From the IMG/VR virus record IMGVR_UViG_3300033150_002113, positions 1 through 36,998 of that record: a stretch of DNA of 36,998 nt; one strand, written 5' to 3'. The DNA is from a virus. The position numbers and the translations under genes were made by a program. Within the stretch, counting starts at the first letter, position 1. Each line of letters opens with the position of its first letter. Of this stretch, positions 10,735 to 34,020 are shown in pieces. The notes under the pieces were generated by a model. It had not been told where the DNA came from, made no database searches, and worked only from the letters and a program-made list of their open reading frames with translations.

Positions 10735-10735
10735 T

Positions 10736-11440: not shown

Positions 11441-11468
11441 AAATAAAATTTATAAAAGGAATAATTGA

Positions 11469-12401
11469 ATGAAAATATTAATAACTGGAGGAGCAGGATT
11501 TGTTGGATCTGTGCTAACTCCCATGCTTCTTAACAATGGTTATAGTGTTCGAGTTTATGATAATTTAATGTATGGAATAGGTGGAATTATAAATTGTTTT
11601 AATGATTCAAAATTTGATTTTGTTGAGGGTGATATTGTGGATAAAGATAAGCTGGCAAGGGCTGTGGATGGATGTGATTCTGTTATACATTTAGCTGCTC
11701 TTGTTGGATTTCCTGCGTGTAAACGAGATTCGGAATTAGCATGGAAAGTAAATGTATTAGGAAGTAGAATTTTGTGTGAAGTATTATCAAATGAAATTCC
11801 TCTGATATTTGCTTCTACAGGAAGTGTTTATGGGAAACTTTCTGAAATATGCACAGAAAAATCAGAAACAAATCCTTTGACTATCTATGGCGAATCAAAA
11901 TTAAAAGCTGAACATTGGATTCGTAGAAGAGAAAATTCAGTTGTTCTTAGATTTGCAACTGCATTTGGAATTTCTCCACGTATGCGACTTGATCTTTTGA
12001 TTAATGATTTTGTATTTACAGCTTTGAAGGAAAGAAATCTGATTGTTTATGAGAAAAACTATCGTCGAACATTTCTTTACATAACCGATATGGTAAGGTC
12101 ATTTATATTTGCACTTGAAAATTTTGATAAGATGAGAGGTGATATTTTTAATGTTGGTGATGAAAGAATGAATTGTTCAAAAGAGGATATAGCAGAGGCA
12201 ATAAAAGAGAGGATTAATTTTTATTTACATTATGTTGAATCTGATGATTTTCATGATGAAGATGAGAGAAATTATGAGGTTGATTATTCAAAGATAAACA
12301 ATTTAGGATTCTCAACTGAAATTTCAATTGAAAAAGGAATTAGTAGACTTTTGAGATTTTTTGAAAGTTTTGATATAAAAAAAGAATATTCAAATGCCTA
12401 G
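11469..12401 (+). CDS. NAD-dependent epimerase/dehydratase (extended SDR)
   Basis: A 310-residue extended short-chain dehydrogenase. It has the NAD-binding ITGGAGFVGS (4-13), the VYDN strand, GDIVDKDKL, VIHLAALVG, a STGSVYG Ser motif and the catalytic YGESK (YxxxK). Its late region contains RRTFLYITDMV and a FNVGDE sugar-binding turn. It is of the UDP-glucose-4-epimerase/dehydratase type and would convert a nucleotide sugar for the adjacent glycosyltransferases. An AAGGA precedes ATG 11469 at suitable distance. Its end overlaps the next small ORF by 8 bases. The exact substrate cannot be determined. Confidence 0.85.
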   Translation: MKILITGGAGFVGSVLTPMLLNNGYSVRVYDNLMYGIGGIINCFNDSKFDFVEGDIVDKDKLARAVDGCDSVIHLAALVGFPACKRDSELAWKVNVLGSRILCEVLSNEIPLIFASTGSVYGKLSEICTEKSETNPLTIYGESKLKAEHWIRRRENSVVLRFATAFGISPRMRLDLLINDFVFTALKERNLIVYEKNYRRTFLYITDMVRSFIFALENFDKMRGDIFNVGDERMNCSKEDIAEAIKERINFYLHYVESDDFHDEDERNYEVDYSKINNLGFSTEISIEKGISRLLRFFESFDIKKEYSNA

Positions 12402-12573
12402 AAAAACAGTAGTTGCTACAATAACTTTGGATGTATCATGTCATCCTGATATTACAGCAAAGCCTGAAACTGTTGAAGATTTTCAATGGCTTCAAAGTTT
12501 AATTGATATGATAAGAATTGAAATGAGAAAAAATCCAGAAGGAATAAAAATTTGGATTGAGGAGATTAAATGA
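12394..12573 (+). CDS. Small protein between two SDR genes (59 aa)
   Basis: A 59-residue ORF, MPRKTVVATITLDVSC at its start and IKIWIEEIK at its end. It fills the gap between the two epimerase genes with an 8-base overlap upstream and an ATGA overlap downstream (12570-12573), which strongly supports translation. The predicted shape is strand-turn-helix-strand. No family recognised. It might help a neighbouring enzyme, but nothing in the sequence shows that. Confidence 0.6.
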   Translation: MPRKTVVATITLDVSCHPDITAKPETVEDFQWLQSLIDMIRIEMRKNPEGIKIWIEEIK

Positions 12574-13520
12574 TTAATCTGAGGAATAGAAGAATATTGG
12601 TTACAGGAGGAAATGGTTTTCTTGGAAGAGTGATAGTTGATAAATTGAGAGAGAAGGAGGCTATTGTTTTATCACCACGTTCGTCTGAAATGAATTTGAT
12701 GGATATTGTTGATACATTTATTTATTTTTACAGGAATAAACCAGACATTGTGATTCATTCAGCTGCATATTACGGAGGTCTTGGTATTAATTCTACTTAT
12801 CCTGCTGATATATTTTTTAAAAATACAATTATGTATGCAAATTTGTTCGAAGCTTGTAAAAATTATTGGGTAGATAGAGTCTTGTGTGTTGGAACTGCAT
12901 GTTCATATCCAGATGGATTAAAGACTCTGAGAGAGGAAGACTTATGGAAAGGTCCTGTACATAAATCTGTTCAAAATTATGGTTGTGTAAAGAAGATGAT
13001 GCAAATAGGATTGGAGGCATATAAAAAGCAGTATGGTCTTGATGGTTTTATGGTGTTGTTAGCAAATCTTTATGGTCCTGGAGATTCTTACAATCCAGAA
13101 CGATCACATGTTGTTGCAGCACTTATAAGAAAATTTGTTGAGGCGAAGAGGGAAAACAAGAAATCAGTTGAAGTATGGGGAAGTGGTCGTCCAATTCGTG
13201 AATTTCTCTATGTTGATGATGCAGCAGAGGGCGTTATTAGAGCTTTAGAAACATATAGCGATATTGAACCATTGAACATAGGAACTGGACAAGGATGTTG
13301 TATTTCAACGCTGGTTGATTTCATAGTTGAGATGACCAAATATAGAGGAGAAGTCAAGTGGGATTCATCAAAACCTGATGGTCAGTATGAGAAGATATTT
13401 GATGTGAAAAAATTAAGTGAAAAATTAAATTGGTTGCCTGAAACATCATTAGAGATTGGTTTGAAGAAAACAATAAAATGGTTTGAGGAGAATTATGATG
13501 TCGCAATTAAAAAATGGTAA
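12570..13520 (+). CDS. GDP-L-fucose synthase-like epimerase/reductase
   Basis: A 316-residue extended SDR with VTGGNGFLGRVIV at its N-terminus, VIHSAAYYGGLGINSTYPAD, a GTACSYP Ser motif and YGCVKKM (YxxxK). NLYGPGDSYNPERSHVVAAL followed by IRKF and VEVWGSGRPIREFLYVDDAA match GDP-4-keto-6-deoxy-D-mannose epimerase/reductase (WcaG/Fcl) closely. It would make GDP-L-fucose or a related GDP-sugar. No GDP-mannose dehydratase is seen in the window, so the precursor must come from the host or from elsewhere in the genome. It overlaps the small upstream ORF by ATGA and contains the ribosome site of the following 49-residue protein. It closes the glycan island. Confidence 0.83.
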   Translation: MINLRNRRILVTGGNGFLGRVIVDKLREKEAIVLSPRSSEMNLMDIVDTFIYFYRNKPDIVIHSAAYYGGLGINSTYPADIFFKNTIMYANLFEACKNYWVDRVLCVGTACSYPDGLKTLREEDLWKGPVHKSVQNYGCVKKMMQIGLEAYKKQYGLDGFMVLLANLYGPGDSYNPERSHVVAALIRKFVEAKRENKKSVEVWGSGRPIREFLYVDDAAEGVIRALETYSDIEPLNIGTGQGCCISTLVDFIVEMTKYRGEVKWDSSKPDGQYEKIFDVKKLSEKLNWLPETSLEIGLKKTIKWFEENYDVAIKKW

Positions 13521-18498: not shown

Positions 18499-21400
18499 AT
18501 GGCTAAGAAGGCAGATGTTACTCTAGTATTTTCTTTGGATTCAAAAGGTGCAGTTACTGGAGTTAAAAAATTTGTTGGACAGGCATCTAAGGATCTTGAA
18601 AAATTAGCCGGAATTACCAGAAAAACAACAGATGCACAAAAGGGATTGGGAAAGCAGATTGATGAGGGTACAGTAACTTATGAAAAAGCACGTTCTGGTC
18701 TAAGCAAATTTAGAAATATGCTAAAGGGCAATTTTGCTGCCATAGCTGCTGGTATGGGAACTGCTATGTTGTTTTCCTCTGTAATTTCTGGAATTAAAAA
18801 TGCTATTTCCAACTTAATCAATACTGGAAGAGAGTTTGAGAGAGAATGGGCTAATGTTACAACTATGATGACAGTTTCCCAACAGGAGAGTGATAAACTT
18901 AGACAGGGGCTTCTTAATTTACCACCTATATTGGGAAAAGCTACAGATTTAGCTAAAGGAATGTATCAGGTTCTATCTGCATCAATTGAACCAGCAAAGG
19001 CATTAGATTTTTTAGCTGTTTCAGCAAAAGCTGCCAAAGCTGGTGTTACTGATACACGTACTGCAGTTGATGCTTTAACTACTGTAATAAATGCCTATGG
19101 TCTTCAAGCCAAAGATGCTACTAAAATTTCTGATATTATGTTTCAAACTGTTAAAAGAGGAAAGTTGACATATGAAGGAATGGCAGGAGCAATTGGAACA
19201 GTTGTTCCAATAGCATCACAAGTTGGTGTTGGATTTGAGGAAATAGCTGCTGCTATGGCAACACTTACTCGTCAAGGAATTAATGTTAATACTACGACAG
19301 TTTCACTTCGTCAAATTTTAGTTTCTATTTTAAAACCAACAAAACAGGCTTCTGAAGAGGCAAAACGTCTAGGTTTGGAATTTACTGCATCATCTTTGAG
19401 GGCAAAAGGTCTTGTTAAATTTCTTCAAGATGTTATTGAAAAAACTGGTGGAAATGTTGAATCAATGACAACTTTATTTGGGAATGTTAGAGCATTGACA
19501 GGTATTATGGGATTGGCAGGGAATTCTGCTGTTGAGTTTGCCCATGATTTGGAACTAATGCGTAATGCTTCAGGTTCGACTGAGGATGCATTTAGGAAAC
19601 AAATTGAGACCTCAGATGCTCAGATTAAAATGTTTAACAATACTATTGAAAGATTTGCCATTAATTTTTATGCTGGTTTTGTTGAAGGATTTATTAAAAG
19701 TTCTAGTGAAATTGATAAATGGAATGAAAAAGTTGCTATTGCTAACAAACGTGCAGAAATAACAGGTAGTTGGCTTTCAAAAATAATAACGGGATTTAAA
19801 GATTATCATCCATTGGCTGTTGCTATTAAGGCTATTACACAAAAACAGGCTGAAGCTGAAGTTGCTTTAGAAACAGCCATGAGAAAAAGGACAGAACAAC
19901 AAAATTTATTTGTTTCTGGTTTAGGACCATTAGGAAGTGCTTTTGGAACTACTTTAAATGTTTATAATAAACTTGTTTCAATGATTGTTTCTGGTAATAA
20001 ACCAATAGAGGAACAATTGGATCTTCTCAAAAAAGTTAGAACAGAATATTTTATGTTTACAAAATCAATCAAAGTTCTTACTGATGAAGAAATAAAATTT
20101 ATAGAAAAAGTTAAAAAGGCTACAGAACAGCTTCGTGATCATCTTGCATCTTCTGAAAAATTTAAGGTTGATATGCAAGCAATGGCAAAAGTTTTAAGTG
20201 AGGTCTCTTCAAAGGGAGGAAATTTACGTAGTACTTATGCTGCTCTTGAGAATGAGATAAAAACTCTTTATACAAGAGCAAAGGTAATGAAAGAAATATT
20301 TGGTAAAGAAATTCCAAAAGCTCTCCAGAATTGGTATGACAGAATGCGTGAGGCAACTTCTGTTTTTAAGTTGTATAGAAATGGGGTAAAAACTACTTTA
20401 TTACAAGAGAAAGCATGGAGTCAGTTTAGAATTGAGCAAGGTGGGAGAATAACACAATTTAATAAAACAATATTAAATCAAATTAAATACTTGTCAGAGT
20501 TAGGAAGGGTATCTGATGAATTAGGAGCAAAATCTTTCTTACAGCTTAATTCTGAATTACAAAAACTTGAACAAAATTTCAAAAAGTGGAAAGATAGTTT
20601 TCCAGCAAAGCAACAGATTACTATTATTGAAGGGATACTTCGGTTATATAAAGAGTTAGGATTTGTTGCACCAGATGCCTACGATAAATTATTAAAAAAA
20701 CTTCGAGAAATAGTTAAGGAACAGGATAAAGCAGCACAGGCTTCAAATAGGACTTGGGTTAAGTCTTTTACGTCACTTGCTGTGGCATTTTCAGTCTATG
20801 CAGATACTCTTAGTGGAAAATGGACACGATTAATGAGAGATTTAGCTACTGCATTTGAAAAAATGGCTGAGACACTCAAAGACAAATCAAAAAATTTAGG
20901 TGATGCTTTGGTTGAAATTGGCTCTGTTTTAGCTGGACAAATAGGTGGGGTATTTGGTGAATTAATCTCTGGTACGGAAAGTGCTATTGCTGGTTTTACT
21001 TCTGCTATAGGTAGTGCAATTGGTGGAATGGTTGGAGGTAAAGTTGGTGAAGTAGTAGGAGGATTTTTAGGTGGTTTGATAGGTGGGCTTTTTGGTAAGA
21101 AAAAGGAAGAGACAGCAGAAGAAAAACGTGCTCGAATTATGGGTTATTGGGTAGATGCTTTGATAAAAAAATTTGAGAAATGGGGAGAGGTCTCTGAGAG
21201 CACAGCAAAGATTATAGCAGAAGAAGTTGTAGATAAAGGAATGAAAGGATATATAGCAGTATCAAAACATTTTGCTAGAATTATATCAGATGTAGGTGTA
21301 TCACTTTACAACATGTCAGAACTTTGGACTAGAGCAGGACATATAGTTGATCATTTTACTACTGGTGAGTTGAGTGCTAAAGATGCTACAGAATCTCTTA

Positions 21401-22611
21401 ATGACTCATTTAAACTTCTTTTGGATGGGACACAAAAGCTGAATCGAGAAGGTTCACGTGAAATGATTGAATTCATACGAAAGGTTAGAGCTTCTGGTTT
21501 GGAAGTGGCATCTGTTACTGATTATGTTTTAGGACAACTTGATAGGATTCCAAAGTCGTTAACAACATTGATTGGAAATGTTGGTGTGGCTTTTGAGAAA
21601 ATTGGGGATGTGACAGGAATTAATGTTGACTATGTCACAAAAAGATTGAAAAATCTTGGTCGTGTATCATTCGATGTATTTAATGCAATGATTTCAGAGG
21701 GTCGGTCATATATGGAATCTTTAAAAGCACTTCAAGAACCACTAACATTATTATTTGAGAAATATGAAAAATTAGGTTTGGAAGTGCCTAAATTTTTGCG
21801 TCCTTTCAAAGATATGTTGGAATTAATGGAGAAAAAACCACGTATATTTGAAAATTTAGATGCCTCTATTAATATTCTCCAAGCTCTCAGGAATTCAGCT
21901 TATCTTACTCAGAGGACATTTAATACATTGTCAGGTAGTGTGGCAGGTTTTGCAAGGTCAATTCTTGGTGTTGATGGAAATCTGAATAAAGTTATGCATA
22001 CAATGAAACTTACAAAGCAACAGATACAAATGCTACTTCCTTCAATAGCTCAATTCGTTGGTGCTGCTGCATTGTTTGGGTTGCAAGTTCCTGGATGGAT
22101 GAAAACGTTTGTCACAGGTCAATTAGGTGTTAATTGGAATAAATTTCAGGAAATTGCTGCTGCTCAAGCAAATGCTGGAATTGAGACAATAAAACGATTG
22201 GATACATTGATAAAGCAAAGCGAGAGGAACAGACTAGGAATTCGTGATGCTATTGCAGACCAAAGAAAACGGTTGGCTGACCTACTTGGTGCAATAAATA
22301 GATCAATAAGAGATATGAGCAGAAAGTTGATCCCAGTAACTGGTGCTCAACATGGATTTGGTCCTACGATGGTTAAGGGCCCTCATACGTTTCATGTTGA
22401 ATCTGGACAGGAGGAGTTAGTAAGTATTGTTCCAAAAAAATATCTCAATAAATCAACAGGTACTGGACAAACTGTAATAGTTGAGCGTTCTGTAAACATC
22501 AAACCAGTTGTTGTTCCGGCACCTGATGGTTCTTGGCTTATTAATTTTATTCAAGAAGCAGCAGAGTCTGAATTACTTACTTTGAATCCAACTGCAATTA
22601 GGAGTCAATAA
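18499..22611 (+). CDS. Tail tape measure protein
   Basis: A 1370-residue protein, the second longest in the window, directly after the chaperone pair. Its N-terminal third (about 110-390) matches the tape measure core: ANVTTMMTVSQQESDKLRQG, ATDLAKGMYQVLSAS, FQTVKRGKLTYEGMAGAIGT, ATLTRQGINVNTTTVSLRQI. Hydrophobic stretches lie at about 78-100 and, rich in Gly, at about 804-863 (IGGMVGGKVGEVVGGFLGG). The remainder is long helix and coiled coil. The C-terminus (HGFGPTMVKGPHTFHVESGQ) has the typical closing motif. It sets tail length and is thought to reach the host membrane on ejection; the Gly-rich segment is a candidate membrane-inserting part. The stop overlaps the next ATG (TAATG). Confidence 0.88.
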   Translation: MAKKADVTLVFSLDSKGAVTGVKKFVGQASKDLEKLAGITRKTTDAQKGLGKQIDEGTVTYEKARSGLSKFRNMLKGNFAAIAAGMGTAMLFSSVISGIKNAISNLINTGREFEREWANVTTMMTVSQQESDKLRQGLLNLPPILGKATDLAKGMYQVLSASIEPAKALDFLAVSAKAAKAGVTDTRTAVDALTTVINAYGLQAKDATKISDIMFQTVKRGKLTYEGMAGAIGTVVPIASQVGVGFEEIAAAMATLTRQGINVNTTTVSLRQILVSILKPTKQASEEAKRLGLEFTASSLRAKGLVKFLQDVIEKTGGNVESMTTLFGNVRALTGIMGLAGNSAVEFAHDLELMRNASGSTEDAFRKQIETSDAQIKMFNNTIERFAINFYAGFVEGFIKSSSEIDKWNEKVAIANKRAEITGSWLSKIITGFKDYHPLAVAIKAITQKQAEAEVALETAMRKRTEQQNLFVSGLGPLGSAFGTTLNVYNKLVSMIVSGNKPIEEQLDLLKKVRTEYFMFTKSIKVLTDEEIKFIEKVKKATEQLRDHLASSEKFKVDMQAMAKVLSEVSSKGGNLRSTYAALENEIKTLYTRAKVMKEIFGKEIPKALQNWYDRMREATSVFKLYRNGVKTTLLQEKAWSQFRIEQGGRITQFNKTILNQIKYLSELGRVSDELGAKSFLQLNSELQKLEQNFKKWKDSFPAKQQITIIEGILRLYKELGFVAPDAYDKLLKKLREIVKEQDKAAQASNRTWVKSFTSLAVAFSVYADTLSGKWTRLMRDLATAFEKMAETLKDKSKNLGDALVEIGSVLAGQIGGVFGELISGTESAIAGFTSAIGSAIGGMVGGKVGEVVGGFLGGLIGGLFGKKKEETAEEKRARIMGYWVDALIKKFEKWGEVSESTAKIIAEEVVDKGMKGYIAVSKHFARIISDVGVSLYNMSELWTRAGHIVDHFTTGELSAKDATESLNDSFKLLLDGTQKLNREGSREMIEFIRKVRASGLEVASVTDYVLGQLDRIPKSLTTLIGNVGVAFEKIGDVTGINVDYVTKRLKNLGRVSFDVFNAMISEGRSYMESLKALQEPLTLLFEKYEKLGLEVPKFLRPFKDMLELMEKKPRIFENLDASINILQALRNSAYLTQRTFNTLSGSVAGFARSILGVDGNLNKVMHTMKLTKQQIQMLLPSIAQFVGAAALFGLQVPGWMKTFVTGQLGVNWNKFQEIAAAQANAGIETIKRLDTLIKQSERNRLGIRDAIADQRKRLADLLGAINRSIRDMSRKLIPVTGAQHGFGPTMVKGPHTFHVESGQEELVSIVPKKYLNKSTGTGQTVIVERSVNIKPVVVPAPDGSWLINFIQEAAESELLTLNPTAIRSQ

Positions 22612-23714
22612 TGACAAATGCTACATGGTGTTGGTATAATTTGTGGGATGTTGGTACACTTACTTATTCAAGTCAACATTCTAATTTTCCTGCTTTAAAC
22701 ACTCAACGTCGATGGGCTAGTGAGACATGGAGAAGTCGATATGGTAACAATTCAGGATGGGGATATTTCTTAATTGAAAGCTCTGTAAATGATCGTATTG
22801 ACTTTGAAGACAATGGTTCTACCACCAGAGTGGCAAGTCTAACTCCTGGTGCATACACAGCTACAACATTAGCATCTCATATAGAAACACAGATGGAGTC
22901 TGTCACAACAGACACATTTACAGTCTCTTATAGCGACAGCACAAATAAATTTACTATAGTTGATGACACAGGCACATTTAAGTTGCTTTGGAGTACAGGA
23001 ACTAATAAATCTCGTTCTGCTGCTGGAACTCTTGGTTATAGTGATTCCGCCGATGATACTGGAACTTTCTCCTACACATCTGATAACATTCGTATTCACA
23101 CAGAGGAGTGGCTTAAAAATGATTTAGGTTCAGCCCAAAATATTCAGGCTTTTATATTCAAAAAACATAATTTAAGTAGTGGCGCAACGGCAAAAATTCA
23201 GGGTCATACTTCAGATTCTTGGTCTTCACCAGACGTTGATGTGACACTATCTTTAACTTCTGATATTACTATCTATTACTGGTCATCTGCTAAAAGTAAA
23301 CAATGGTGGAGATATTATATAAATGATGTAGCAAATTCATCTCATTATGTTGAAACAGGAAGAGTATTTCTAGGTGGATATTTCAGTTCCTCTATGAATT
23401 TGCGTCGTGATTATCGGAAACAATATAATGATCCTTCAGATTTAATGTTTTCTGATGGTGGGCAATTATCAGTAAATAAGAAGACGAAATTTAAAACTAT
23501 GAATTTAGTTTTTGAATATGTTTCAGACACTGACCTTTCTACATTTGATTCAATATGGGATCATTTAGGTAAAACAAAAGAATTTTTCTTTACAAGAGAT
23601 AGAGATTTAGCTAGTACATCAACAAGTTATATGCGTATTGTTGATATGAGTGTTGACCATGTATCAATGGATAAACTTTATACAATTTCTCTTGTGTTGG
23701 AAGATCTGCGATAA
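22611..23714 (+). CDS. Distal tail-like protein
   Basis: A 367-residue, beta-rich protein right after the tape measure gene, the place of the distal tail (Dit) protein. Residues about 55-165 form a module (SVNDRIDFEDNGSTTRVASL, TPGAYTATTLASHIETQM, TDTFTVSYSDSTNKFTIV) common in phage tail proteins. The C-terminal part (LMFSDGGQLSVNKKTKFKTM, FDSIWDHLGKTKEFFFTRDR, LVLEDLR) looks like a galectin- or tube-like Dit portion. It would form the ring that joins the tube to the tail-tip hub. It ends at 23714, and the ATG of the hub gene follows at once (23715). Confidence 0.62.
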   Translation: MTNATWCWYNLWDVGTLTYSSQHSNFPALNTQRRWASETWRSRYGNNSGWGYFLIESSVNDRIDFEDNGSTTRVASLTPGAYTATTLASHIETQMESVTTDTFTVSYSDSTNKFTIVDDTGTFKLLWSTGTNKSRSAAGTLGYSDSADDTGTFSYTSDNIRIHTEEWLKNDLGSAQNIQAFIFKKHNLSSGATAKIQGHTSDSWSSPDVDVTLSLTSDITIYYWSSAKSKQWWRYYINDVANSSHYVETGRVFLGGYFSSSMNLRRDYRKQYNDPSDLMFSDGGQLSVNKKTKFKTMNLVFEYVSDTDLSTFDSIWDHLGKTKEFFFTRDRDLASTSTSYMRIVDMSVDHVSMDKLYTISLVLEDLR

Positions 23715-26700
23715 ATGGCTACAACTTATTACGTTAGAGCTGATGGAGATGATTCCAAAGATGGGCTATCTGATGCCAATGCTTGGAAAACTATATCCAA
23801 AGTAAACTCCTCAATGGGGAGTTTCAGTGGTGGTGATTTTATTGGTTTCAAACGTGGCGATGTTTGGGATGGTACATTAAGTGATTGTCTCAAGATAACT
23901 GCTAGCGGCTCCTCTGGCTCTATAATAACATTTGGTGCCTATGGATCTGGTGCAGATCCTATATTAAATGGTGCAAATGTACTTACAACTTGGGTAGTTG
24001 CAGATGATGTAAGTGATGATAATTGTTTGTCTAATGGTGGCTTTTCGTCTGATACTTCAAGTTGGACGGCTGAGAGAAGTGCTACTCTAACGAGCGTTTC
24101 TGGTGGTCAAAGTGGAAATTGTTTAGAAATCAAAGAAAATGGTAATAGCAACCCAAGAGCTAAACAATCAATAACAAAAGGTGTAACACCTGGTGATAGT
24201 CTAACACTTACTTTCTATGTTAAGGCTGGAACTGAGGCAACATGGAGAGTGTGGGTTCATGATGTCACTCATGCTACTGAACTCTATGATAGTACCAATA
24301 ATGAAGCTACAGGCTCATGGGTACAGCAAAATTCAGGTTCATTTACAATTCCTAGTGGATGTGAAGAAATATCTGTAACACTCCAACAAACCTGTGATTT
24401 GGATGCTAAAACTACCATTTATTTTGACGAAGTTGTAGTATATAACAATGCTATTTTCAAAAAGGATGTTACAAATACGCCATACGTCTGTGTGGAGGAT
24501 GATACATTTCTAGATTATTTGGGATGGGATACAGATACACAAACAACTTTTGATGGTGAAAGCAGTGGATGCTGGGCTAATGATGGAACAGTTTGTTATG
24601 TTAGATGTACAGACGATGCTGATCCTGATACTCATACAATGGAAGTTGGAAACAAAACTGGGGATGATCAGCATTGTATCTATGGGCTGAATGTTAGTTA
24701 TGTCACAGTTGAAGATATTAAATGCCAATATAGTACTCAGGAGGCAATATATTTCTATACGTCTAGTGGTACGGATAGTGATATCACAGTACAGAATTGT
24801 ACGGTATTCATTAGTGGTGACTCATGTATTGAAGTAAAGTCTGTTAATACTGGAACATATCAAAACATTACTAATGCGAGAATATATAATTGTGATGTGA
24901 GTTACAGTCGAAGACATGGATTGATATTTGTTAATGGCACATCAGATTCCAAGATGGACTACAATACTGCTCATCATTGTGGATGGGGAGGAACAGGAGT
25001 TGGTGGAACTGGTGGGCATAACATCAGTCATTGGTCGGCAAATACAACAGCAAACACCAGAAATAATGTTCTTGAATATAATGAAAGTTACTCATGTTAT
25101 ATAGCAACAGATGGTACTGAAGGGACTGGGATTCAGTTGGATGATAATTCTCAGGCTTGTACTGTTCGGTACAATCTGTCATACAACAATGAGGGTCCTG
25201 CCTACAACGACAATGGATATAAGGACAACAAATGGTATTATAATATAGGCTACGGTTCTGGTTCAGCGTCTGCAACTCAATTTGTTGGTGGATTTATGGC
25301 TTCACAGCCAAATGGACTGAAAGTTTGGAACAACGTTTTCTATGATAATGAACCTTGTGGAATAGGTATATTTGGAACCTCGGTGAGCTATGAATTGAAG
25401 AACAATATTCTTTCAGAGAATGACACATATGAAATTAAAATTGCTGTTGCTGCAAAGACAGGAATTGATAGTGATTATAATTGCGTGTATCACTCAGCTG
25501 GTGGTTCATTCATGTATTGGGGTGCTGACAAGACATGGGTGACATGGAAGTCAGACTCTAGTCAAGATTCTAATTCGAAAAATGAAGATCCAAAATTCGT
25601 TGATGTGTCTTCTCATGACTTTCATATAAAGTCTACTTCGCCTTGTCGTAATGCTGGGACAAGTGTTAGTCTAACACAAGATTATGATGGAGTTACAGTT
25701 CCTGTAGAGACATATCCATGTATAGGTGCGTATGAATTCTATACGGAAGAAGGAGAAATATCTGTCTCAGCTACTCTGACTGGTGACCTGACTATATTTA
25801 CTGGAATTCAAGATTTACAAGGAACTATTTCATCTTCAGCACTGCTAGAAGCTGATTTAACGGCAATTATTTCTTTAATTAGTGAGATAACTGCATCTAG
25901 TACTATTACAGCAGATACTTTAAAAGTTATACGAGGTTTGGATGCTTCTATTAGTTCATCTGCTACATTAACTGGAGCACTTAAAAAATTAAAATATTTA
26001 GTTGGTTTGATACAATCAACTAGTGGTATCTCTGGTGATTTTAAGGCTTTAAAAGAAATTGCTGGCTCAATAAGTGCTGCTGCATTATTTACAGCAATTC
26101 TTACAATTCCAGATCAATCTGCTACTGTTGCTCCTACAACAACTCCATTTGATGAATTTATCAAGTTAACAGATTCTTTTAAAACATTTTTGGTAGAAAT
26201 AAATAAAGCTGAAGAGATTGAAGATTATACATGGACACAGGATTCAACCTATACAAATTGTTATTATACAACATATACAACTGGATTTCCAAATAAAATA
26301 ACCGAAGATGATACAACATATGTAGAACGTTTTACTCTTAGTGAATGTAACACGAATGCTGAAAGTTTTTATTATGACTTGGTAAATCAAAAACTATATC
26401 TTCATACTGTGGGTTCTGATGATCCTGGTTCTATGACTGGGAATGACTATGATTATAAAATAATTGCATATAGTTGGACCTATTTATGTAATGATAATTC
26501 AGAAGATTTTCCAACTATATTTACTCGTGAACAGGAATTGATAGATAATTATAGTTTTGATATCTGGGATGACTCTACAACGTTAAATGGATGGACAAAT
26601 TTTACAGCTGGGTCCTCTACTGTTAATAGAGAATCTAGTAATGTTTATCATGAAGGATATTCAGTTAAATTGGATATTGATGCATCAAATAACGATGCAG

Positions 26701-28829
26701 TAATATATAAGAGTTTTATCATAGAACCAGGAGCTAAGTGTAAATTATCATTTTGGTATTCAAATTCTGATACAGGAAAGACAGCAAAAATTAGGTTTCG
26801 TGATTCAGGAACGAATGTATATCTTGATTCAAATGGAGATTGGGCTACATCAAGTACAGACATACAATTGACAAATAGCTCAGGTGAGTGGACAAAATAT
26901 GAAATAGAGTTTTATGCCCATACTGATTATACAAATTATGTTCTTCAATTTAGAAATGATAGTGCAGCTGATTCAAAGATTTATTTCGATAAACCATCAT
27001 TATTAATGTATAGAGAAGATAATTATTATTACCCATATCTTCAATCAGCAAGTATGCCAATTCTTCGTCAATCTGTATCTGACTATCATATAGGTTCAAT
27101 TGAACTCAATTTTGGTACATTAAGATTTATAAATGATGGATGGTGGTATTCTGCTGTCCAAGATTATTTATGGAATAATAAAAAACTTATTGTCAGATAT
27201 GGTAGGCGTGATTCTTTATATTCTGATTTTGGTGTTGTTTTTGAGGGTAGAACAAGAAAGCCAAAAGTTAGTGATACATTTTCTTCATTGCAAGTTACAG
27301 ATATGCGAACATTGGCTTATAAGGAAATTCCTGCTACAAAATATTGGACATCTAATTATCCTAACTTGAAGGACGGTTTTGAAGGATTTCCTATTCCTAT
27401 TATTTATGGGCAAGTATCTGGTTGTCTTCCTACTTGTATTGACACCAGCACATACAAATTTAAAATATCTGTGCATGCATTGGAATCAATTGATGCTGTC
27501 TACAAAGATGGAACACTTTTGACTGTAACTACAGATTATACAGTTGATTTGGCTAATGGTGAATTTACTCTTACTGCAGATCCAGAAGAAGCTGTGATAA
27601 CGTGTGATGTCAAGGGAAAAAAATGTGACATGGAGGATGGTACTTATTCTCAAAATGTTGCAGATATACTTTATGATTTGCTTGTTAACTATGTTGAAAT
27701 TGATAAAGAAAAAATTGATTATGGGTCTTTTTTGGATTTACGAAATGCTCGTACTCAATCACATATGTTATACATTGATGTTGCTGCAACTGCAATGGAG
27801 ACCATTAGAAAACTTCAGGCATCTGCATTATTTCATTTAATTCCATTAGCTGATGGGAGGATTGGAGCATTCCGTTATTCAACAGGAATAGATTCAGATA
27901 CTTTACGTGTGATAGATGAAGAATGGATAAATTTTGCAATTGAAAAGACAACGTCAAGTGTTTATTCAAAAGTAAAGGTTCATTATAATAGAAATCCTGA
28001 AGATTTTAGTTATGACATCATTGAAAGAACTAATGATAATGTAGAAAGAAAGTATGGGGTAAATCGAACTTTTAACCTTTATTCATCATTAAGAGTAAAA
28101 TCAGAAGCGGAGAATATTGGTGATTTTTATATTGATTTATTTAAAGATCCAATGAGAAAAGTTTCTGGGAATTTACCAACAAAGCTTTTCAAATTACGAC
28201 CAGCAGAAAAACTTGTTGTTAATAAAACTAGGGAAGATAGGGATGGAAATACGATTGCAGTTTTAGATGAGGAACCATATCGTGTGCTTGTTCTTGCAAA
28301 AAGTTTTCAAACTGGAAGGGTTGATATAGAGGCGTGGGAGGACCTCCAAAGTGCTGGAGAAACTTATTGTGAAGTTTGCTATGATTGCCAAACTTGTTTT
28401 TCTACACAAACTGGATCATGCAGTACATGTTATACATGTGAGAAGTGTGACTACGGTGAATGTGATACTTGTCAATCCTGCTATTATTGTGAAAAATGTA
28501 ACACAGGAGAATGTTCATCATGTGAGTCATGTGATAGTTGTCAGACATGTAACACATGTGAAGCAACTCAATGTTCTTCATGCAACACATGTCAATTGTG
28601 TAATGTTTGTCAAAATTCAGAATGTAATAGTTGCCAGACATGTGACACATGCCAAAAATGCTACACCTGTATGAATGGTGAATGTAGTAGTTGTCAGAAT
28701 TGTATCACATGTGAAAAATGTAACACAGGAGAATGTTCATCATGTGAGTCATGTGATAGTTGTCAGACATGTAACACATGTGAAAATTGTGTAAATTGTC
28801 AATCATGTTTTGGAATATATGTTCCATAA
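23715..28829 (+). CDS. Giant tail-tip protein: beta-helix, jelly rolls, hub and Cys-repeat tail
   Basis: A 1704-residue multidomain virion protein. Residues 1-675 open with YYVRADGDDSKDGLSDANAW and end CIGAYEF, the frame of a right-handed beta-helix of the pectate-lyase-like group, with a jelly-roll carbohydrate-binding-like insert at about 105-245. Residues about 680-800 are Ser/Ala/Leu repeats (ISSSALLEADLTAI, ISSSATLTGALKKL). A second jelly-roll-like module spans about 940-1100. Residues about 1110-1545 look like a tail hub (VRYGRRDSLYSDFGVVFEGR; GFPIPIIYGQVSGC). Residues 1552-1704 hold 44 Cys, mostly in C-x-x triplets broken by CxxGE-type 5-residue units. The beta-helix may bind or cut a glycan; no catalytic residues can be assigned. 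The Cys tail is a likely substrate of the radical SAM enzyme two genes on. Confidence 0.75.
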   Translation: MATTYYVRADGDDSKDGLSDANAWKTISKVNSSMGSFSGGDFIGFKRGDVWDGTLSDCLKITASGSSGSIITFGAYGSGADPILNGANVLTTWVVADDVSDDNCLSNGGFSSDTSSWTAERSATLTSVSGGQSGNCLEIKENGNSNPRAKQSITKGVTPGDSLTLTFYVKAGTEATWRVWVHDVTHATELYDSTNNEATGSWVQQNSGSFTIPSGCEEISVTLQQTCDLDAKTTIYFDEVVVYNNAIFKKDVTNTPYVCVEDDTFLDYLGWDTDTQTTFDGESSGCWANDGTVCYVRCTDDADPDTHTMEVGNKTGDDQHCIYGLNVSYVTVEDIKCQYSTQEAIYFYTSSGTDSDITVQNCTVFISGDSCIEVKSVNTGTYQNITNARIYNCDVSYSRRHGLIFVNGTSDSKMDYNTAHHCGWGGTGVGGTGGHNISHWSANTTANTRNNVLEYNESYSCYIATDGTEGTGIQLDDNSQACTVRYNLSYNNEGPAYNDNGYKDNKWYYNIGYGSGSASATQFVGGFMASQPNGLKVWNNVFYDNEPCGIGIFGTSVSYELKNNILSENDTYEIKIAVAAKTGIDSDYNCVYHSAGGSFMYWGADKTWVTWKSDSSQDSNSKNEDPKFVDVSSHDFHIKSTSPCRNAGTSVSLTQDYDGVTVPVETYPCIGAYEFYTEEGEISVSATLTGDLTIFTGIQDLQGTISSSALLEADLTAIISLISEITASSTITADTLKVIRGLDASISSSATLTGALKKLKYLVGLIQSTSGISGDFKALKEIAGSISAAALFTAILTIPDQSATVAPTTTPFDEFIKLTDSFKTFLVEINKAEEIEDYTWTQDSTYTNCYYTTYTTGFPNKITEDDTTYVERFTLSECNTNAESFYYDLVNQKLYLHTVGSDDPGSMTGNDYDYKIIAYSWTYLCNDNSEDFPTIFTREQELIDNYSFDIWDDSTTLNGWTNFTAGSSTVNRESSNVYHEGYSVKLDIDASNNDAVIYKSFIIEPGAKCKLSFWYSNSDTGKTAKIRFRDSGTNVYLDSNGDWATSSTDIQLTNSSGEWTKYEIEFYAHTDYTNYVLQFRNDSAADSKIYFDKPSLLMYREDNYYYPYLQSASMPILRQSVSDYHIGSIELNFGTLRFINDGWWYSAVQDYLWNNKKLIVRYGRRDSLYSDFGVVFEGRTRKPKVSDTFSSLQVTDMRTLAYKEIPATKYWTSNYPNLKDGFEGFPIPIIYGQVSGCLPTCIDTSTYKFKISVHALESIDAVYKDGTLLTVTTDYTVDLANGEFTLTADPEEAVITCDVKGKKCDMEDGTYSQNVADILYDLLVNYVEIDKEKIDYGSFLDLRNARTQSHMLYIDVAATAMETIRKLQASALFHLIPLADGRIGAFRYSTGIDSDTLRVIDEEWINFAIEKTTSSVYSKVKVHYNRNPEDFSYDIIERTNDNVERKYGVNRTFNLYSSLRVKSEAENIGDFYIDLFKDPMRKVSGNLPTKLFKLRPAEKLVVNKTREDRDGNTIAVLDEEPYRVLVLAKSFQTGRVDIEAWEDLQSAGETYCEVCYDCQTCFSTQTGSCSTCYTCEKCDYGECDTCQSCYYCEKCNTGECSSCESCDSCQTCNTCEATQCSSCNTCQLCNVCQNSECNSCQTCDTCQKCYTCMNGECSSCQNCITCEKCNTGECSSCESCDSCQTCNTCENCVNCQSCFGIYVP
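28368..28826 (+). repeat. Cysteine-triplet repeat coding region of the tail-tip protein
   Basis: Encodes residues 1552-1704 with 44 Cys in 153 residues. Thirty-six units are C-x-x; six are 5-residue units such as CNTGE, CMNGE and CDYGE that end blocks of 14, 17 or 20 residues. An exact 75-base in-frame direct repeat occurs at 28488-28562 and 28710-28784 (offset 222 bases), showing recent duplication or conversion. T and S are the most common residues before each Cys. Confidence 0.9.
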
Positions 28830-28838
28830 GGAATAAAA

Positions 28839-29291
28839 ATGGCTTGTTCAGTATGTGAAAGTTGTAATACATGTGAATTATGTAATGCAGTAAATTGTGC
28901 ATCTTGTCAAATATGTGATGTTTGCCAAACGTCATGCTATACAGGTCAATGCCCTACTTGCCAAGCTTGCGATAGTTGTCAGGGTTCATGCTATACAGGT
29001 CAATGCCCTACTTGCCAGATTTGTGTAAATTGTCAATCATGTGTGACAAATCAATGTACATCATGTCAGACATGCGTGAGTTGTGAATCAGCATGTTATA
29101 CGGATCAATGCCCTACTTGCCAATATTGTAATTCATGTCAGTCATCATGCTATACAAGCCAATGTTATACATGCCAGACATGTGATTCTTGTGAGTCAGC
29201 ATGTTATACAGGTCAATGTGGTACATGTCAGATATGCGTTTCATGTGAGATTTGTAATACATGCTTGCTTTGTTTTTCAAATCAATCTTAG
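28839..29291 (+). CDS. Cysteine-repeat protein, probable substrate of the radical SAM enzyme
   Basis: A 150-residue protein with 42 Cys (28 %). From about residue 20 it consists of 17-18-residue repeats of the form CPTCQACDSCQGSCYTGQ: three C-x-x units, one C-x-x-x unit, then CYTGQ or a close variant. About six copies follow each other, and the ends are irregular (MACSVCESCNTCEL; CLLCFSNQS). It has no signal peptide, membrane segment or positively charged region, and almost no Lys or Arg, so it is not metallothionein-like in charge. It starts 9 bases after the tail-tip gene (AAGGA before ATG 28839), and AGGAG at its end serves the maturase gene. Likely a virion component that is crosslinked after translation; metal binding is the main alternative. 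I know of no named family. Confidence 0.8.
   Translation: MACSVCESCNTCELCNAVNCASCQICDVCQTSCYTGQCPTCQACDSCQGSCYTGQCPTCQICVNCQSCVTNQCTSCQTCVSCESACYTDQCPTCQYCNSCQSSCYTSQCYTCQTCDSCESACYTGQCGTCQICVSCEICNTCLLCFSNQS
28896..29270 (+). repeat. Tandem 17-18-codon Cys repeats
   Basis: About six in-frame copies of a 51-54-base unit encoding C-x-x-C-x-x-C-x-x-C-x-x-x-C-Y-T-x-Q. The words TGCTATACAGGTCAATGCCC and CCTACTTGCCA recur, showing expansion by tandem duplication. Confidence 0.82.
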
Positions 29292-29304
29292 GAGAAATTA
29301 ATTA

Positions 29305-31629
29305 ATGAATAAATGTGAAAATTGTTATACATGTGAAACTAATATTGTTCCTTGGGCAACTAAGGAGATACTAGAAAATGCAAAAATAAAAAATAATGGA
29401 GAAATTCCACAAGAACTACTTTTCAAACAGGGGAACTGTGAAAAATGCGTCACATGTGAAAAATGTGATGTTGCCCAAGGAAATTGTGAAAAATGTGTCA
29501 CATGTGAAAAATGTGTCACTGCTCAAGGTGGTGGTAATGGAAAGTCAATATCATATTTTGTTTTTACTAGTAATGAATGTAATTTAAGATGCCATGTTGC
29601 AGGTACTAGAGTTTTGATGTCTGATTTATCATGGAGAAATATTGAAAATATTAAAATTGGTGATGAGGTTATTGGTTTTGATATAAATAAACCTGGTGGT
29701 TCTTATTTGAAGATTTCCAAGGTTATAAATACAGGAAATCGTTTATCATCAGTTATTCAGCTTATTACAGATAAAGGAAAAGTTAGAACTTCTGAGGATC
29801 ATAAGTGGTTTTATTTTTCTGGTAATAGATATTATTATAGAGAAACCAAAAAACTTTATTTAGGAAGCAAAATAAAATTTTTAATCAAACCAACTATTTT
29901 CAAAGAAACTGATTTATATAAACTTGGGTATTTAAATGGTTATTTAAGAGGTGATGGGTGGGTTCATAAAAAAGAAAAAATAAAAGATACAAAAGGTATT
30001 GGGTTTGATTCTATTGATAAAGAAGCAATAGACAATATAGTTGAATACATTAAATATTTTGGTTGGGATAAATATACTATAAGAGAAGAGGTTTTAGAAT
30101 CAGGAAAAACTTTATATCGATTGAGAATTTGGTCTCAATTTTTTGATGTTGCAAAGAAAAAAGTATTAAGATGGAATAATAATAAAGAGTTTCAGCGTGG
30201 ATTTGTTGCTGGTATTTTTGATAGTGAGGGAAGTACACATCATGGACAAATTAAGATATATAACACTGATAAAAATATTTTAAATGATATTTATTTATCA
30301 TTAAAAACGTGGGGATTCCAAGTAAAAATTTGTCAACATAAAAATCAATGTCCTTATATTTATGTTTTGGCTAAAAATAATGCTAAAATAAAATTCATTC
30401 ACACATTCTTACCTAAGATAAGAAGAAAAGTTTTTAACCTTATTAATGGATCAGTTAGTTATAAGAATTATGCAACAGTTCAAGGTATGGTACAAGATGG
30501 TGTTGAAAAAACATATAATATTCAGACTGAAACAGGAAATTATATTTGTGAGGGTCTTTTTTCAGCAAATTGTGACTATTGTTACGCTACAAAAAAACCA
30601 CTTAATATGACAAAAGAAACAGCAGATAAGATGATGGCTTGGATATTATTTGATGAATCTAAACGACTTCCAGATTATAATTTTCAATTGCAATTTTTTG
30701 GTGGTGAGCCAACAATGAAATTTGAAGTAATTCAATATATTGTTGATACAATGAATAGAGAAATGGAAACACATTTCAATGGAAAGAAAATTAGATATGG
30801 TATGACTACAAATGGTACTCTGTTGGATGAAAAAAAGCTACAGTGGTTGAAAAGTAAAAATTTCACTATGCTTTTTAGTATTGATGGAAGAAGAGAAACC
30901 CACGATAAACATCGTAAAAAGAGAGATGGATCTGGTTCGTGGGATGATATAGACTTTGACCTCATTCTAAAATATTTTCCGAATCCAGAAATTCGACCAA
31001 CAATTCTTCCTGATACAGTAGAGAATTGGATAGAAGATTTGAAATGGTTTCACAGTAAAGGTTGTTATACTATCGCAACTGAGGTTGCATATGAAGTTGA
31101 TTGGACAGATGAGGCAATGGCACATGCATGGGTAACTTATAACAGATTGGCAGACATGTATATTGATATGAAAAAAAGAGGGCAAAAATGTTGGATGAAA
31201 TTTATTGAAGATGGGAAAAATTTTTTAGGATCTCGTTTGCAAACAGGAAATGTTTGTGGTGTTGCAAGGAATTCAGTGGCAATTGATGCTGAAGGTAACT
31301 TATTTGCTTGTCAACGTTATGCATCATTTTCAAATTCAGACTTAAAACTAGGAAATGTTTCTGATGGATGGAATATAAATATGCTGAAAATGGCAAATGG
31401 TTTGGTTAGAGAAAATATGTTTCCAGATCCAACTAGTGGTTATAACTGTGATACTTGCCATGCTAGATATCGATGCAGAGGTGGTTGTAATGCAATGAAT
31501 TTTCAATGTAATGGTGATAGAAGGATAATACTTAAAAATCACTGTAGATTTATGCGAATGTGGACGACAATAGCGTTTAGGGCATTAGCAGCGACAGGAG
31601 AGCTTTGGGACAGACTTGGAGTTAAGTAA
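29305..31629 (+). CDS. Radical SAM/SPASM peptide maturase, with N-terminal substrate-like repeats and an intein
   Basis: A 774-residue precursor. Residues 1-74 carry Cys repeats like those of the two upstream proteins, including a tandem 16-residue unit, GNCEKCVTCEKC plus four residues (43-58 and 59-74). The radical SAM domain begins at SYFVFTSNECNLR (83-95), is interrupted by an intein (96-422), and resumes at CDYCYATKKP. Joined, these give CNLRCDYC, the CxxxCxxC site of the 4Fe-4S cluster that cleaves S-adenosylmethionine. FFGGEPTM (about 464-471), MTTNGTLL and LFSIDG follow. The SPASM end has VCGVARNSVAIDAEGNLFAC (from about 649), GNVSDGW and CDTCHARYRCRGGC (715-728), for auxiliary clusters. 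Family enzymes make thioether or C-C crosslinks in peptides. The spliced enzyme is 447 residues. AGGAG precedes ATG 29305. Confidence 0.88.
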   Translation: MNKCENCYTCETNIVPWATKEILENAKIKNNGEIPQELLFKQGNCEKCVTCEKCDVAQGNCEKCVTCEKCVTAQGGGNGKSISYFVFTSNECNLRCHVAGTRVLMSDLSWRNIENIKIGDEVIGFDINKPGGSYLKISKVINTGNRLSSVIQLITDKGKVRTSEDHKWFYFSGNRYYYRETKKLYLGSKIKFLIKPTIFKETDLYKLGYLNGYLRGDGWVHKKEKIKDTKGIGFDSIDKEAIDNIVEYIKYFGWDKYTIREEVLESGKTLYRLRIWSQFFDVAKKKVLRWNNNKEFQRGFVAGIFDSEGSTHHGQIKIYNTDKNILNDIYLSLKTWGFQVKICQHKNQCPYIYVLAKNNAKIKFIHTFLPKIRRKVFNLINGSVSYKNYATVQGMVQDGVEKTYNIQTETGNYICEGLFSANCDYCYATKKPLNMTKETADKMMAWILFDESKRLPDYNFQLQFFGGEPTMKFEVIQYIVDTMNREMETHFNGKKIRYGMTTNGTLLDEKKLQWLKSKNFTMLFSIDGRRETHDKHRKKRDGSGSWDDIDFDLILKYFPNPEIRPTILPDTVENWIEDLKWFHSKGCYTIATEVAYEVDWTDEAMAHAWVTYNRLADMYIDMKKRGQKCWMKFIEDGKNFLGSRLQTGNVCGVARNSVAIDAEGNLFACQRYASFSNSDLKLGNVSDGWNINMLKMANGLVRENMFPDPTSGYNCDTCHARYRCRGGCNAMNFQCNGDRRIILKNHCRFMRMWTTIAFRALAATGELWDRLGVK
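29431..29526 (+). repeat. Two tandem 48-base repeats in the maturase N-terminus
   Basis: Copies 29431-29478 and 29479-29526 each encode GNCEKCVTCEKC followed by four residues ending AQ. They share the words TGTGAAAAATG and CACATGTGAAAAATGTG with the Cys tail of the tail-tip gene, so the repeat has moved among the three genes or been conserved between them. Confidence 0.85.
29590..30570 (+). mobile_element. Intein with LAGLIDADG homing endonuclease, in the radical SAM motif
   Basis: A 327-residue in-frame insert (precursor residues 96-422). It begins with Cys1 (CHVAGTRVLMSD...IKIGDEVIGFD, block A) and has block B RTSEDHKWF. Two LAGLIDADG motifs, LGYLNGYLRGDG (about 206-217) and FVAGIFDSEG (about 299-308), mark the homing endonuclease. 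Block F/G is TYNIQTETGNYICEGLFSAN, followed by Cys as +1 extein residue. Asn is the last residue as required, but the usual penultimate His is Ala. Removal restores CNLRCDYC exactly, which fixes both borders. The element is a selfish gene placed in an invariant motif. Confidence 0.92.
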
Positions 31630-32841: not shown

Positions 32842-33333
32842 TTAACTCCTTTTTACATAATCATAGATATATCTCCACTGATCTGGAATAGGATTTAGTG
32901 GAATTATTTTTAATTTATTGAAGTCAATTTTGATATGCCTGATAGAATTATCAACATAGCCTTTAATACAGCTTTTTGCAAATTTTTCATTCCAATATTC
33001 TTCCTTACAGAATGACTTTGCAATTCTCCAGGCTATAACTTCTTCTCTAATATTGTGTAGATCCATTAGAGAGTCAATAATGCAATATCTTCCAATGACA
33101 AAGTGTCCACTTAGAATATGCCCTATCTCATGAAGTAGTGCCATTCTCCAGTTTTTTTCTTTTTTTCCACATTTAATATGTTTAACAACTTCTCCTGTTG
33201 ATAGTTGAAAATGCTTTCTGTCTTGAATGTTCTGTCTTATTGAGATAGCTGTACAAGTCTTAGTTTTCAGATATCCAACAGATGGAAAAAGCCAAACACC
33301 AGCTTTGTTGCTTTTGTCATAAATTATTTCCAT
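32842..33333 (-). CDS. HExxH metallopeptidase-like protein (ImmA/IrrE-like)
   Basis: A 163-residue protein with a zinc-binding HEIGHILSGH at 68-77 (His68, Glu69, His72) after an amphipathic helix (KNWRMALL). A nearby REEVIAWRIAKSF (with the Glu expected as third ligand) is typical of ImmA/IrrE-type (Peptidase_M78) domains, where an 'E-x-E-A/x-x-x-F/A' helix follows. Such phage or mobile-element proteases often cleave a repressor to switch gene expression. AGGAG precedes the ATG at 33333. It lies in one minus-strand operon with another HExxH protein just upstream (12-base gap). The substrate is unknown. Confidence 0.7.
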   Translation of the reverse strand: MEIIYDKSNKAGVWLFPSVGYLKTKTCTAISIRQNIQDRKHFQLSTGEVVKHIKCGKKEKNWRMALLHEIGHILSGHFVIGRYCIIDSLMDLHNIREEVIAWRIAKSFCKEEYWNEKFAKSCIKGYVDNSIRHIKIDFNKLKIIPLNPIPDQWRYIYDYVKRS

Positions 33334-33345
33334 TTAAAGACTCCT

Positions 33346-34020
33346 TTAAAATTTTGGTTGTAGGATTTCTTCATTTCCTACTCCCAATAAATCTTTAAAT
33401 TTTTTCAATCTTATCTCCCATGCCTTATCATGTTCACTATAACGAAATGATTCATCTCTATGACTTTTTGACTCTGCATCAATATGATGTAATAATTCAT
33501 GGAGTAAAGTCTCTTTCATTTGAGTTATATCTATTGGTCGATGCTGATAAATAGTAATAGCATATTTTCTGACTAGAAGTCCTGATTCATAAGTTCCAAA
33601 TTCGAACTTATTTTTTATCTTGACTATCTCGAGTTCTGGTGGGAGTGTATATCCATTGATTCCACGTGTATGAATTACATTAAAATGAACTTCATCAATA
33701 AGACGCTTTCCCCAAAGTTCAAATGATTTAAGATATGGAGTTCTTTCAATTCTTTTCCAGATTTTTTTAGCTTTAGGGGTAACATGTATTACATATCCAT
33801 GGGAGTCTAGAACTTTACAAGCACGTTTGAATTCTATTTGTCTGTTTTTTGATCTTCTGTTTACTTTTTTTCTTTGTTGTTCCCAAAATTTCTCATCTGG
33901 CCACTTACGTGCTTTAGTCATTGGTGAGTGGCAATATCTACATTTTCTTGGTATATCTTTTTTCTTACGAGTGTAAACAACTTTACATTTATAGCAGATC
34001 CATAGTCTTGTTTTTCTCAT
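33346..34020 (-). CDS. Zinc-ribbon SprT-like metallopeptidase
   Basis: A 224-residue protein. The N-terminus holds a zinc ribbon (CYKC at 9-12, CRYC at 27-30). A basic helical stretch (about 38-70) follows. The C-terminal half has the zinc protease motif HELLHHID (174-181) and EHDKAWEIRLKKF (from 196), the second His-containing helix typical of SprT-like domains, which work on DNA-bound proteins. A phage SprT-like protein could act in replication or counter host proteins on DNA. AGGAG lies in the 33-34-base minus-strand leader before the ATG at 34020. It is cotranscribed with the ImmA/IrrE-like gene. Confidence 0.68.
   Translation of the reverse strand: MRKTRLWICYKCKVVYTRKKKDIPRKCRYCHSPMTKARKWPDEKFWEQQRKKVNRRSKNRQIEFKRACKVLDSHGYVIHVTPKAKKIWKRIERTPYLKSFELWGKRLIDEVHFNVIHTRGINGYTLPPELEIVKIKNKFEFGTYESGLLVRKYAITIYQHRPIDITQMKETLLHELLHHIDAESKSHRDESFRYSEHDKAWEIRLKKFKDLLGVGNEEILQPKF

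Follow-up and report, generated by a model that had tools for sequence, protein, structure and literature searches.

An uncultured phage carries, in its tail operon, a cassette of three genes encoding a putative tail-tip hub that ends in a cysteine polymer, a stand-alone Cys protein closely matched to that polymer in length and largely in register with it, and a radical SAM (rSAM)/SPASM enzyme that probably acts on the Cys repeats. The cassette lies in the window, that is, the entire IMG/VR virus record IMGVR_UViG_3300033150_002113 of 36,998 nucleotides, and all phages compared with it are likewise uncultured metagenome contigs. Thirteen distinct complete cassettes were found in IMG/VR phages, the window included, and their order and strand are constant: a protein with a C-terminal Cys domain, the stand-alone Cys protein, and then the rSAM, with short gaps and some overlaps. 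The original prediction, made from the window's letters, had proposed looking for rSAM genes beside repeat genes in other phages, and this linkage proved to be conserved; the pattern it named as its refutation, repeat proteins that never have an rSAM nearby, is not what the paired CxxC type displays. It did not include an intein within the enzyme, the length- and register-matched Cys pair, or a His/Asp variant of the hub with its own rSAM, all described below.

Within the window (Table 1), 9 bases separate the hub gene from the stand-alone Cys gene, and 13 bases separate the latter from the rSAM ORF. A Cys-repeat pattern has 8 matches in the window versus 0 in 100 shuffles, and the ORF coordinates and Cys counts originally given for the two repeats (44 in 153 residues and 42 in 150) were exact on recount. 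A promoter and terminator scan gave signal no higher than in shuffles. The protein encoded between tape measure and hub has counterparts at the equivalent position in L004, L005, L006, L007, L009, L154, and L062. Elsewhere in the window, an island between the capsid and tail genes (4218-13520) encodes GT9, GT2, and possible GT61 glycosyltransferases together with methyltransferases, two sulfotransferases, and two nucleotide-sugar epimerases, and might serve to decorate the virion or the host surface with a sulfated glycan. On the minus strand, two ORFs at 32842-34020 bear HExxH motifs (HEIGH and HELLH) and lack a Pfam match; they are possible metallopeptidases.

Table 1. Features of the cassette and of the genes upstream of it, in window positions
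Feature	Position	Strand	Remarks
Tail tape-measure protein	18499..22611	+	PF10145 E 4e-35; phrog_991 E 1e-51
367-aa protein between tape measure and hub, distal-tail position	22611..23714	+	phrog_8610
Putative tail-tip hub ORF, 1704 aa	23715..28829	+	Three parts, the C-terminal one being the Cys domain
Hub C-terminal Cys-repeat domain, 153 aa, 44 Cys	28368..28826	+	Predicted target of the rSAM and, in the putative rod, the first strand
Stand-alone Cys-repeat protein, 150 aa, 42 Cys	28839..29291	+	Putative co-linear partner of the hub Cys domain
Radical SAM/SPASM maturase gene, intein-split	29305..31629	+	PF04055 36.5 bits
Maturase N-terminal CxxCxxC[EQ] modules	29305..29526	+	Situated at the RRE position of other maturases
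LAGLIDADG homing-endonuclease intein, 327 aa	29590..30570	+	LAGLIDADG_3 59.8 bits
SPASM domain, all seven Cys (CX12GX4C, CX2CX5CX3C, C)	31255..31545	+	TIGR04085 41.8 bits

In a protein search of viral contigs, the enzymes of L004, L005, L006, L007, and L009 shared 50-63% identity with the spliced window enzyme, those of L181/L186, L182, L183/L184, L062, and L185 shared 36-40%, and that of L187 shared 29%. Distances between rSAMs and between hub cores are tightly correlated (Mantel r=0.95, P=0.0001). Cys-repeat DNA patterns blind to the rSAM found L062, L154, and L276, in each of which an rSAM comes next (in L154 it is cut by the contig end), as well as L274 and L281, both cut by a contig end; L207 and L211 likewise run out at or close to a contig edge. 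The more specific patterns are the informative ones, as a Cys-spacing pattern devoid of residue context yielded, among the matches listed, mostly antisense low-complexity sequence and at least one true locus (L062). In L187 and L276 the Cys domain is joined to other N-terminal parts, yet still lies within structural-gene regions; because these N-terminal parts differ, the Cys module appears to be mobile between fibre proteins. A profile search of genome contigs for the rSAM returned a single weak locus, and therefore no close prophage or host copy was found.

Cys-rich phage proteins of other types were also encountered. Those of L269, L270, and L273 are in records with no Radical_SAM match, and that of L271 has an rSAM nearby. 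L278:6104-7234 and L282:1775-2914 encode Cys-rich proteins of 376 and 379 aa (64 Cys); the neighbour in L282 is weakly rSAM-like (TIGR03906, E 1.5e-6), and that in L278 is weakly similar, with no NCBIfam match. L010, L034, and L041 hold 4 to 7 rSAM genes and, nearby, small proteins with Cys-rich C-termini of other kinds (CxxC and CxC), possibly looser relatives of the same Cys-repeat/rSAM idea. Phages frequently carry rSAM genes at other places.

The two Cys proteins of a cassette closely track each other in length. Measured from the first Cys in 13 phages (L154 in, and L006 out as near-identical to L005), the hub and stand-alone lengths are 153/148, 283/274, 251/274, 107/105, 105/113, 107/109, 300/308, 248/245, 237/235, 292/290, 246/251, 103/101, and 49/50. 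The last pair belongs to L276, whose cassette, with an enzyme of 410 aa, is the smallest. Over this range of 49-308 aa, Pearson r is 0.996, the gap between partners has a median of 2% and a maximum of 8%, and among 100,000 random re-pairings no set matched as well. Independent contrasts on the enzyme tree give a similar correlation (r=0.99, P=2e-9). The breaks that interrupt the CxxC pattern agree as well (7/7, 13/14, 11/11, 5/5, 5/6, 5/5, 16/15, 12/12, 12/12, 14/14, 11/11, and 1/0 in hub and stand-alone, respectively) and are largely in register between the chains. When Cys patterns are aligned, a chain's own partner is top or tied top in 10/12, a count that comprises few independent register tests, length patterns being common to close relatives. 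Since both lengths and breaks match, the simplest reading is that the two chains lie side by side over their full length. Hub domain and stand-alone protein are 46-60% identical within one phage, and their likeness outside the Cys is 35% when both come from one phage and 34.5% when they come from different phages, which rules out a recent duplication. Among the closest phages, the best match of each protein is the same type in another phage, and type-specific start patterns are kept.

At the residue level, Cys accounts for ~28% of the polymer, and the codons argue that it is strictly conserved under purifying selection. The hub Cys domains of L005 and L009 are separated by 41 amino-acid differences and 18 synonymous Cys-codon changes with zero Cys lost; likewise, comparing L005 with L009 or L154, both domains keep every Cys even though 32-41 amino acids differ and as many as 18 Cys codons per domain have changed synonymously. 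Such codon-level selection rules out an assembly or frame artefact. The residue that follows successive Cys is by turns Gln/Glu and Asp/Asn (P about 1e-30), which makes the repeat unit a hexad, C[QE]xC[DN]x; for 73% of Cys, position C+4 is Gln, Asp, Glu, or Asn. A single repeat had originally been ascribed to all three genes. This holds for the hub end and the stand-alone protein, but the repeat at the enzyme N-terminus is not quite identical. L005 and L006 have hub Cys domains identical at all 107 codons and hub cores differing at 316/741 codons, so that recombination has split the Cys module from the core.

The third gene product scores above the cut-offs for both the radical SAM superfamily (PF04055, 36.5 bits vs. 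29.5) and the SPASM domain (TIGR04085, 41.8 vs. 27), and the seven-Cys SPASM pattern, a motif of the kind that binds two auxiliary clusters, is present in 11/11 aligned enzymes. Its best NCBIfam model is NF047865, the PapB ranthipeptide maturase, followed by nif11-type, SCIFF, and QhpD-type maturases. The PapB model is the best match of all cassette enzymes tested, at 187-281 bits (spliced window enzyme 223, L004 230, L062 187, L187 281, L276 230), all beneath the equivalog cut-off of 340; the SCIFF maturase model TIGR03974 gives 144.6 bits against a cut-off of 425, and QhpD-type TIGR03906 gives 140 bits. The nearest solved structure by sequence is CteB (PDB 5wgg/5why, E 2e-50), which is also the top fold match (E 9e-23) when the L004 enzyme is modelled, mostly with good confidence in the barrel and SPASM regions; anSME-type rSAMs, which oxidize Cys, are also among the structural neighbours. 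In L062:9120-10676 and L185:9965-11479, the cluster motif reads CxxxCxxxC (CNLSCKYPC and CNFRCAYPC), not CxxxCxxC. The original assignment to the radical SAM/SPASM enzymes is thereby sustained and narrowed, the thioether-forming PapB and CteB being closest, but the ORF is not a continuous enzyme gene, as an intein interrupts it.

The maturase precursor spans 774 aa, or 447 aa once spliced. The intein (aa 96-422) lies in frame between CNLR and CDYC, its insertion point coinciding with the second Cys of the CxxxCxxC motif, which only splicing rejoins (CNLRCDYC). The insertion has the features of a LAGLIDADG intein: an N-terminal Cys (CHVAGTRV), Hint blocks including SEDH at block B, an endonuclease that matches I-DmoI (E 3e-5), a terminal SAN followed by C, thus Asn and then Cys +1, and the rejoined host motif. 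It deviates in having Ala in place of the penultimate His and in a Hint model score under the Pfam cut-off, and for these two reasons splicing is rated as likely and not higher. Splicing in silico raises the PapB-family score from 203 to 223 bits. Because the unspliced ORF is devoid of CxxxCxxC, the window enzyme would need splicing and could be active only once the intein has been removed. The intein is missing from every relative enzyme aligned. An intein within an rSAM is likewise represented by NF038136 (Rv2578c-family radical SAM intein), whose alignment spans the intein and C-terminal junction at 36.8 bits, far under its 700-bit cut-off, and whose rSAM family differs from that of the window enzyme. 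Ahead of the intein, the first 74 residues contain 11 Cys, arranged as CENCYTCE, CEKCVTCEKC, and CEKCVTCEKC, the first set apart from the other two by a 34-aa linker lacking Cys. Such CxxCxxC modules number 2-5 per enzyme in the 11 aligned enzymes, are also visible in L276, and are disordered in the L004 enzyme model; no RRE domain match was obtained in the window enzyme.

The hub consists of a beta-helix-like N-terminal domain (~aa 1-800), a core (~aa 812-1548), and the Cys domain. That a tail-tip protein is the likely substrate, as originally proposed, agrees with the gene order after the tape measure and with a pb3/gpJ-like core, the latter in a low-confidence model: the top Foldseek matches are T5 pb3 and lambda gpJ (E 1e-9), at pLDDT 55 and low TM-scores. 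Against PDB sequences the hub matches no solved hub, the core has no match among cultured phages, and the capsid matches are too distant for naming a host. In T5 and lambda the hub is a trimer with its C-termini directed to the central fibre, so by analogy the Cys domain would sit at the tip. The extra N-terminal domain looks similar in the window hub (23715-26147) and the distant L181 hub, gives a weak beta-helix match for the window hub alone, and is missing in the closer relatives L004, L005, and L007.

A hub search turned up a variant of this architecture in L204:1066-4442, a hub homologue with 34% identity over the hub core and a C-terminus of roughly 110 aa made of a His/Asp repeat. The next gene overlaps the hub gene and encodes a different rSAM/SPASM enzyme, nearest to the cyclophane-forming AmcB (a weak match of 60 bits). 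Because repeat type and rSAM change together at this single locus, the enzyme would be expected to act on the hub C-terminus, and the joint swap, albeit at one locus, is the best single argument for such an action. A more distant hub homologue, L212, has neither a repeat nor an rSAM match.

From the cassette, its conservation, the selection on its Cys, the matching in length and register, the enzyme family, and the intein, all evident at the sequence level, we infer a modification of the repeats, its chemistry, a rod, and a docking step. The hub C-terminus would supply a Cys polymer of regularly broken C-[Q/E]-x-C-[D/N]-x hexads, and the free polymer from the next gene, of equal length and break pattern, would pack strand by strand along it; a co-linear two-chain rod of this sort is probable. 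The SPASM radical SAM maturase would modify the Cys repeats either ahead of tail assembly or while it proceeds. Docking on the repeats would probably fall to the enzyme's N-terminal CxxCxxC modules, which would stand in for the RRE and leader on which RiPP maturases rely. The likeliest link would be a thioether from the Cys sulfur to a side-chain carbon of Asp, Glu, Asn, or Gln four residues downstream (CX3[D/E/N/Q]). PapB links Cys to Asp/Glu within CX3D/E and copes with spacings from 0 to 6 (PMC9413430), QhpD installs several Cys-Asp/Glu thioether links within a protein subunit (PMC7876137), and Asn is an acceptor in NxxcA according to a review (PMC8326336). In the phage polymers, Gln/Asn is commoner than Asp/Glu at the presumed acceptor position. 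To our knowledge Gln has no precedent as a thioether acceptor, and this is the weakest step of the thioether account. Taken as a whole, the account of a thioether-stapled virion tail-tip rod built by the cassette is favoured with moderate confidence. Conceivably, it exemplifies a general class of virion fibres in which low-complexity polymers are paired, matched in length, and stapled through their side chains by radical SAM enzymes dedicated to them, and in which repeat (Cys or His/Asp) and enzyme swap together as a hub C-terminus module, a generalization for which the chances appear evenly balanced.

The chemistry admits a different reading, in which the Cys fibre binds metal or Fe-S clusters or is held by disulfides, and the rSAM makes some other modification, of inter-Cys residues or by a formylglycine-type oxidation, with no thioether staples formed. 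CxxC is the classic motif for metal and disulfide alike and Cys is abundant here, the Cys-oxidizing anSME-type enzymes are structural neighbours, and next to Cys the frequency of Gln/Asn equals that of Asp/Glu. Nevertheless, this reading is unlikely: the nearest families are PapB, CteB/SCIFF, nif11-type, and QhpD, several of them proven thioether formers, and a fibre of disulfides or metal only would have no need of an rSAM in every phage. The matched lengths, for their part, could stem from recurrent gene conversion or re-duplication of hub domain and stand-alone gene, and not from structural pairing. Both are DNA repeats with appreciable identity within a phage, and Cys domain and stand-alone gene can move as a block, as the identical Cys domains on differing cores in L005/L006 indicate. 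Such homogenization is improbable, as it is at odds with a non-Cys likeness no higher within (0.35) than between phages (0.345), with the same-type matches across the closest phages, and with the persistence of type-specific starts.

Two further readings concern the stand-alone protein and the enzyme. A PapB-like maturase beside a small Cys-rich ORF is the usual RiPP layout, and the stand-alone protein might accordingly be a secreted RiPP-like peptide (a ranthipeptide bacteriocin) to which the hub repeat is unrelated. A RiPP/ranthipeptide system has a short leader-bearing precursor, an RRE, export or protease functions, and a product whose thioether is attached to a non-alpha carbon, but the putative substrates here are the hub C-terminus and a 150-aa protein within a tail operon; neither a leader peptide nor an RRE match was seen, and a length that tracks the hub domain is unexpected for a free peptide, rendering a secreted product very improbable. 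The frequency of rSAM genes elsewhere in phages would fit an enzyme that is unrelated cargo, a moron gene present by chance. A constant position and strand in 13/13 phages, including the rSAM-blind finds, and the exchange of the rSAM along with the repeat type in L204 leave this scarcely credible.

In the literature searched (without subscription journals and preprints), nothing was found on rSAM-modified virion proteins, nor any described counterpart of a paired virion polymer with its own maturase. Known radical SAM peptide maturases make small products or modify single enzyme subunits; here, the apparent substrate is a long polymer of two proteins carried by the virus particle. If true, the thioether-stapled rod would constitute a new principle of virion assembly, the enzymatic covalent stapling of a tail rod, and would provide cross-linked protein fibres that are genetically encoded and programmable in length. 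It would also offer natural enzyme/substrate pairs of ~50 to 300 residues with which to study maturase action along a polymer, and the length matching yields a testable rule, full-length pairing of the two chains.

Compared with tail-tip proteins of known structure, the hub shares with T5 pb3 and lambda gpJ its position after a tape measure and a distal-tail-like gene, but here its C-terminus is a polymer of Cys (or His/Asp) repeats and a maturase gene adjoins; as far as we know, pb3 and gpJ have no such polymer or maturase. Among the enzymes, PapB, which acts on repeated CX3D/E motifs of PapA (freyrasin), resembles the cassette enzymes by profile, and both it and QhpD provide analogous thioether links, with Asp/Glu as acceptors. 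Unlike PapB, the cassette enzymes bear N-terminal CxxCxxC modules, and whereas PapA is a short leader-bearing peptide, the putative substrate is a polymer of 50-300 residues encoded in a phage tail operon. Every SPASM Cys of CteB aligns with the phage enzymes, but the alignment begins only at CteB residue 100, past its N-terminal RRE, and the phage N-termini differ. QhpD and its substrate QhpC, the quinohemoprotein amine dehydrogenase gamma subunit, offer a precedent in that a protein subunit, not a peptide product, is modified; there, three links are made in a small leader-bearing enzyme subunit, whereas in the phage cassettes dozens of Cys are available in a putative two-protein virion polymer.
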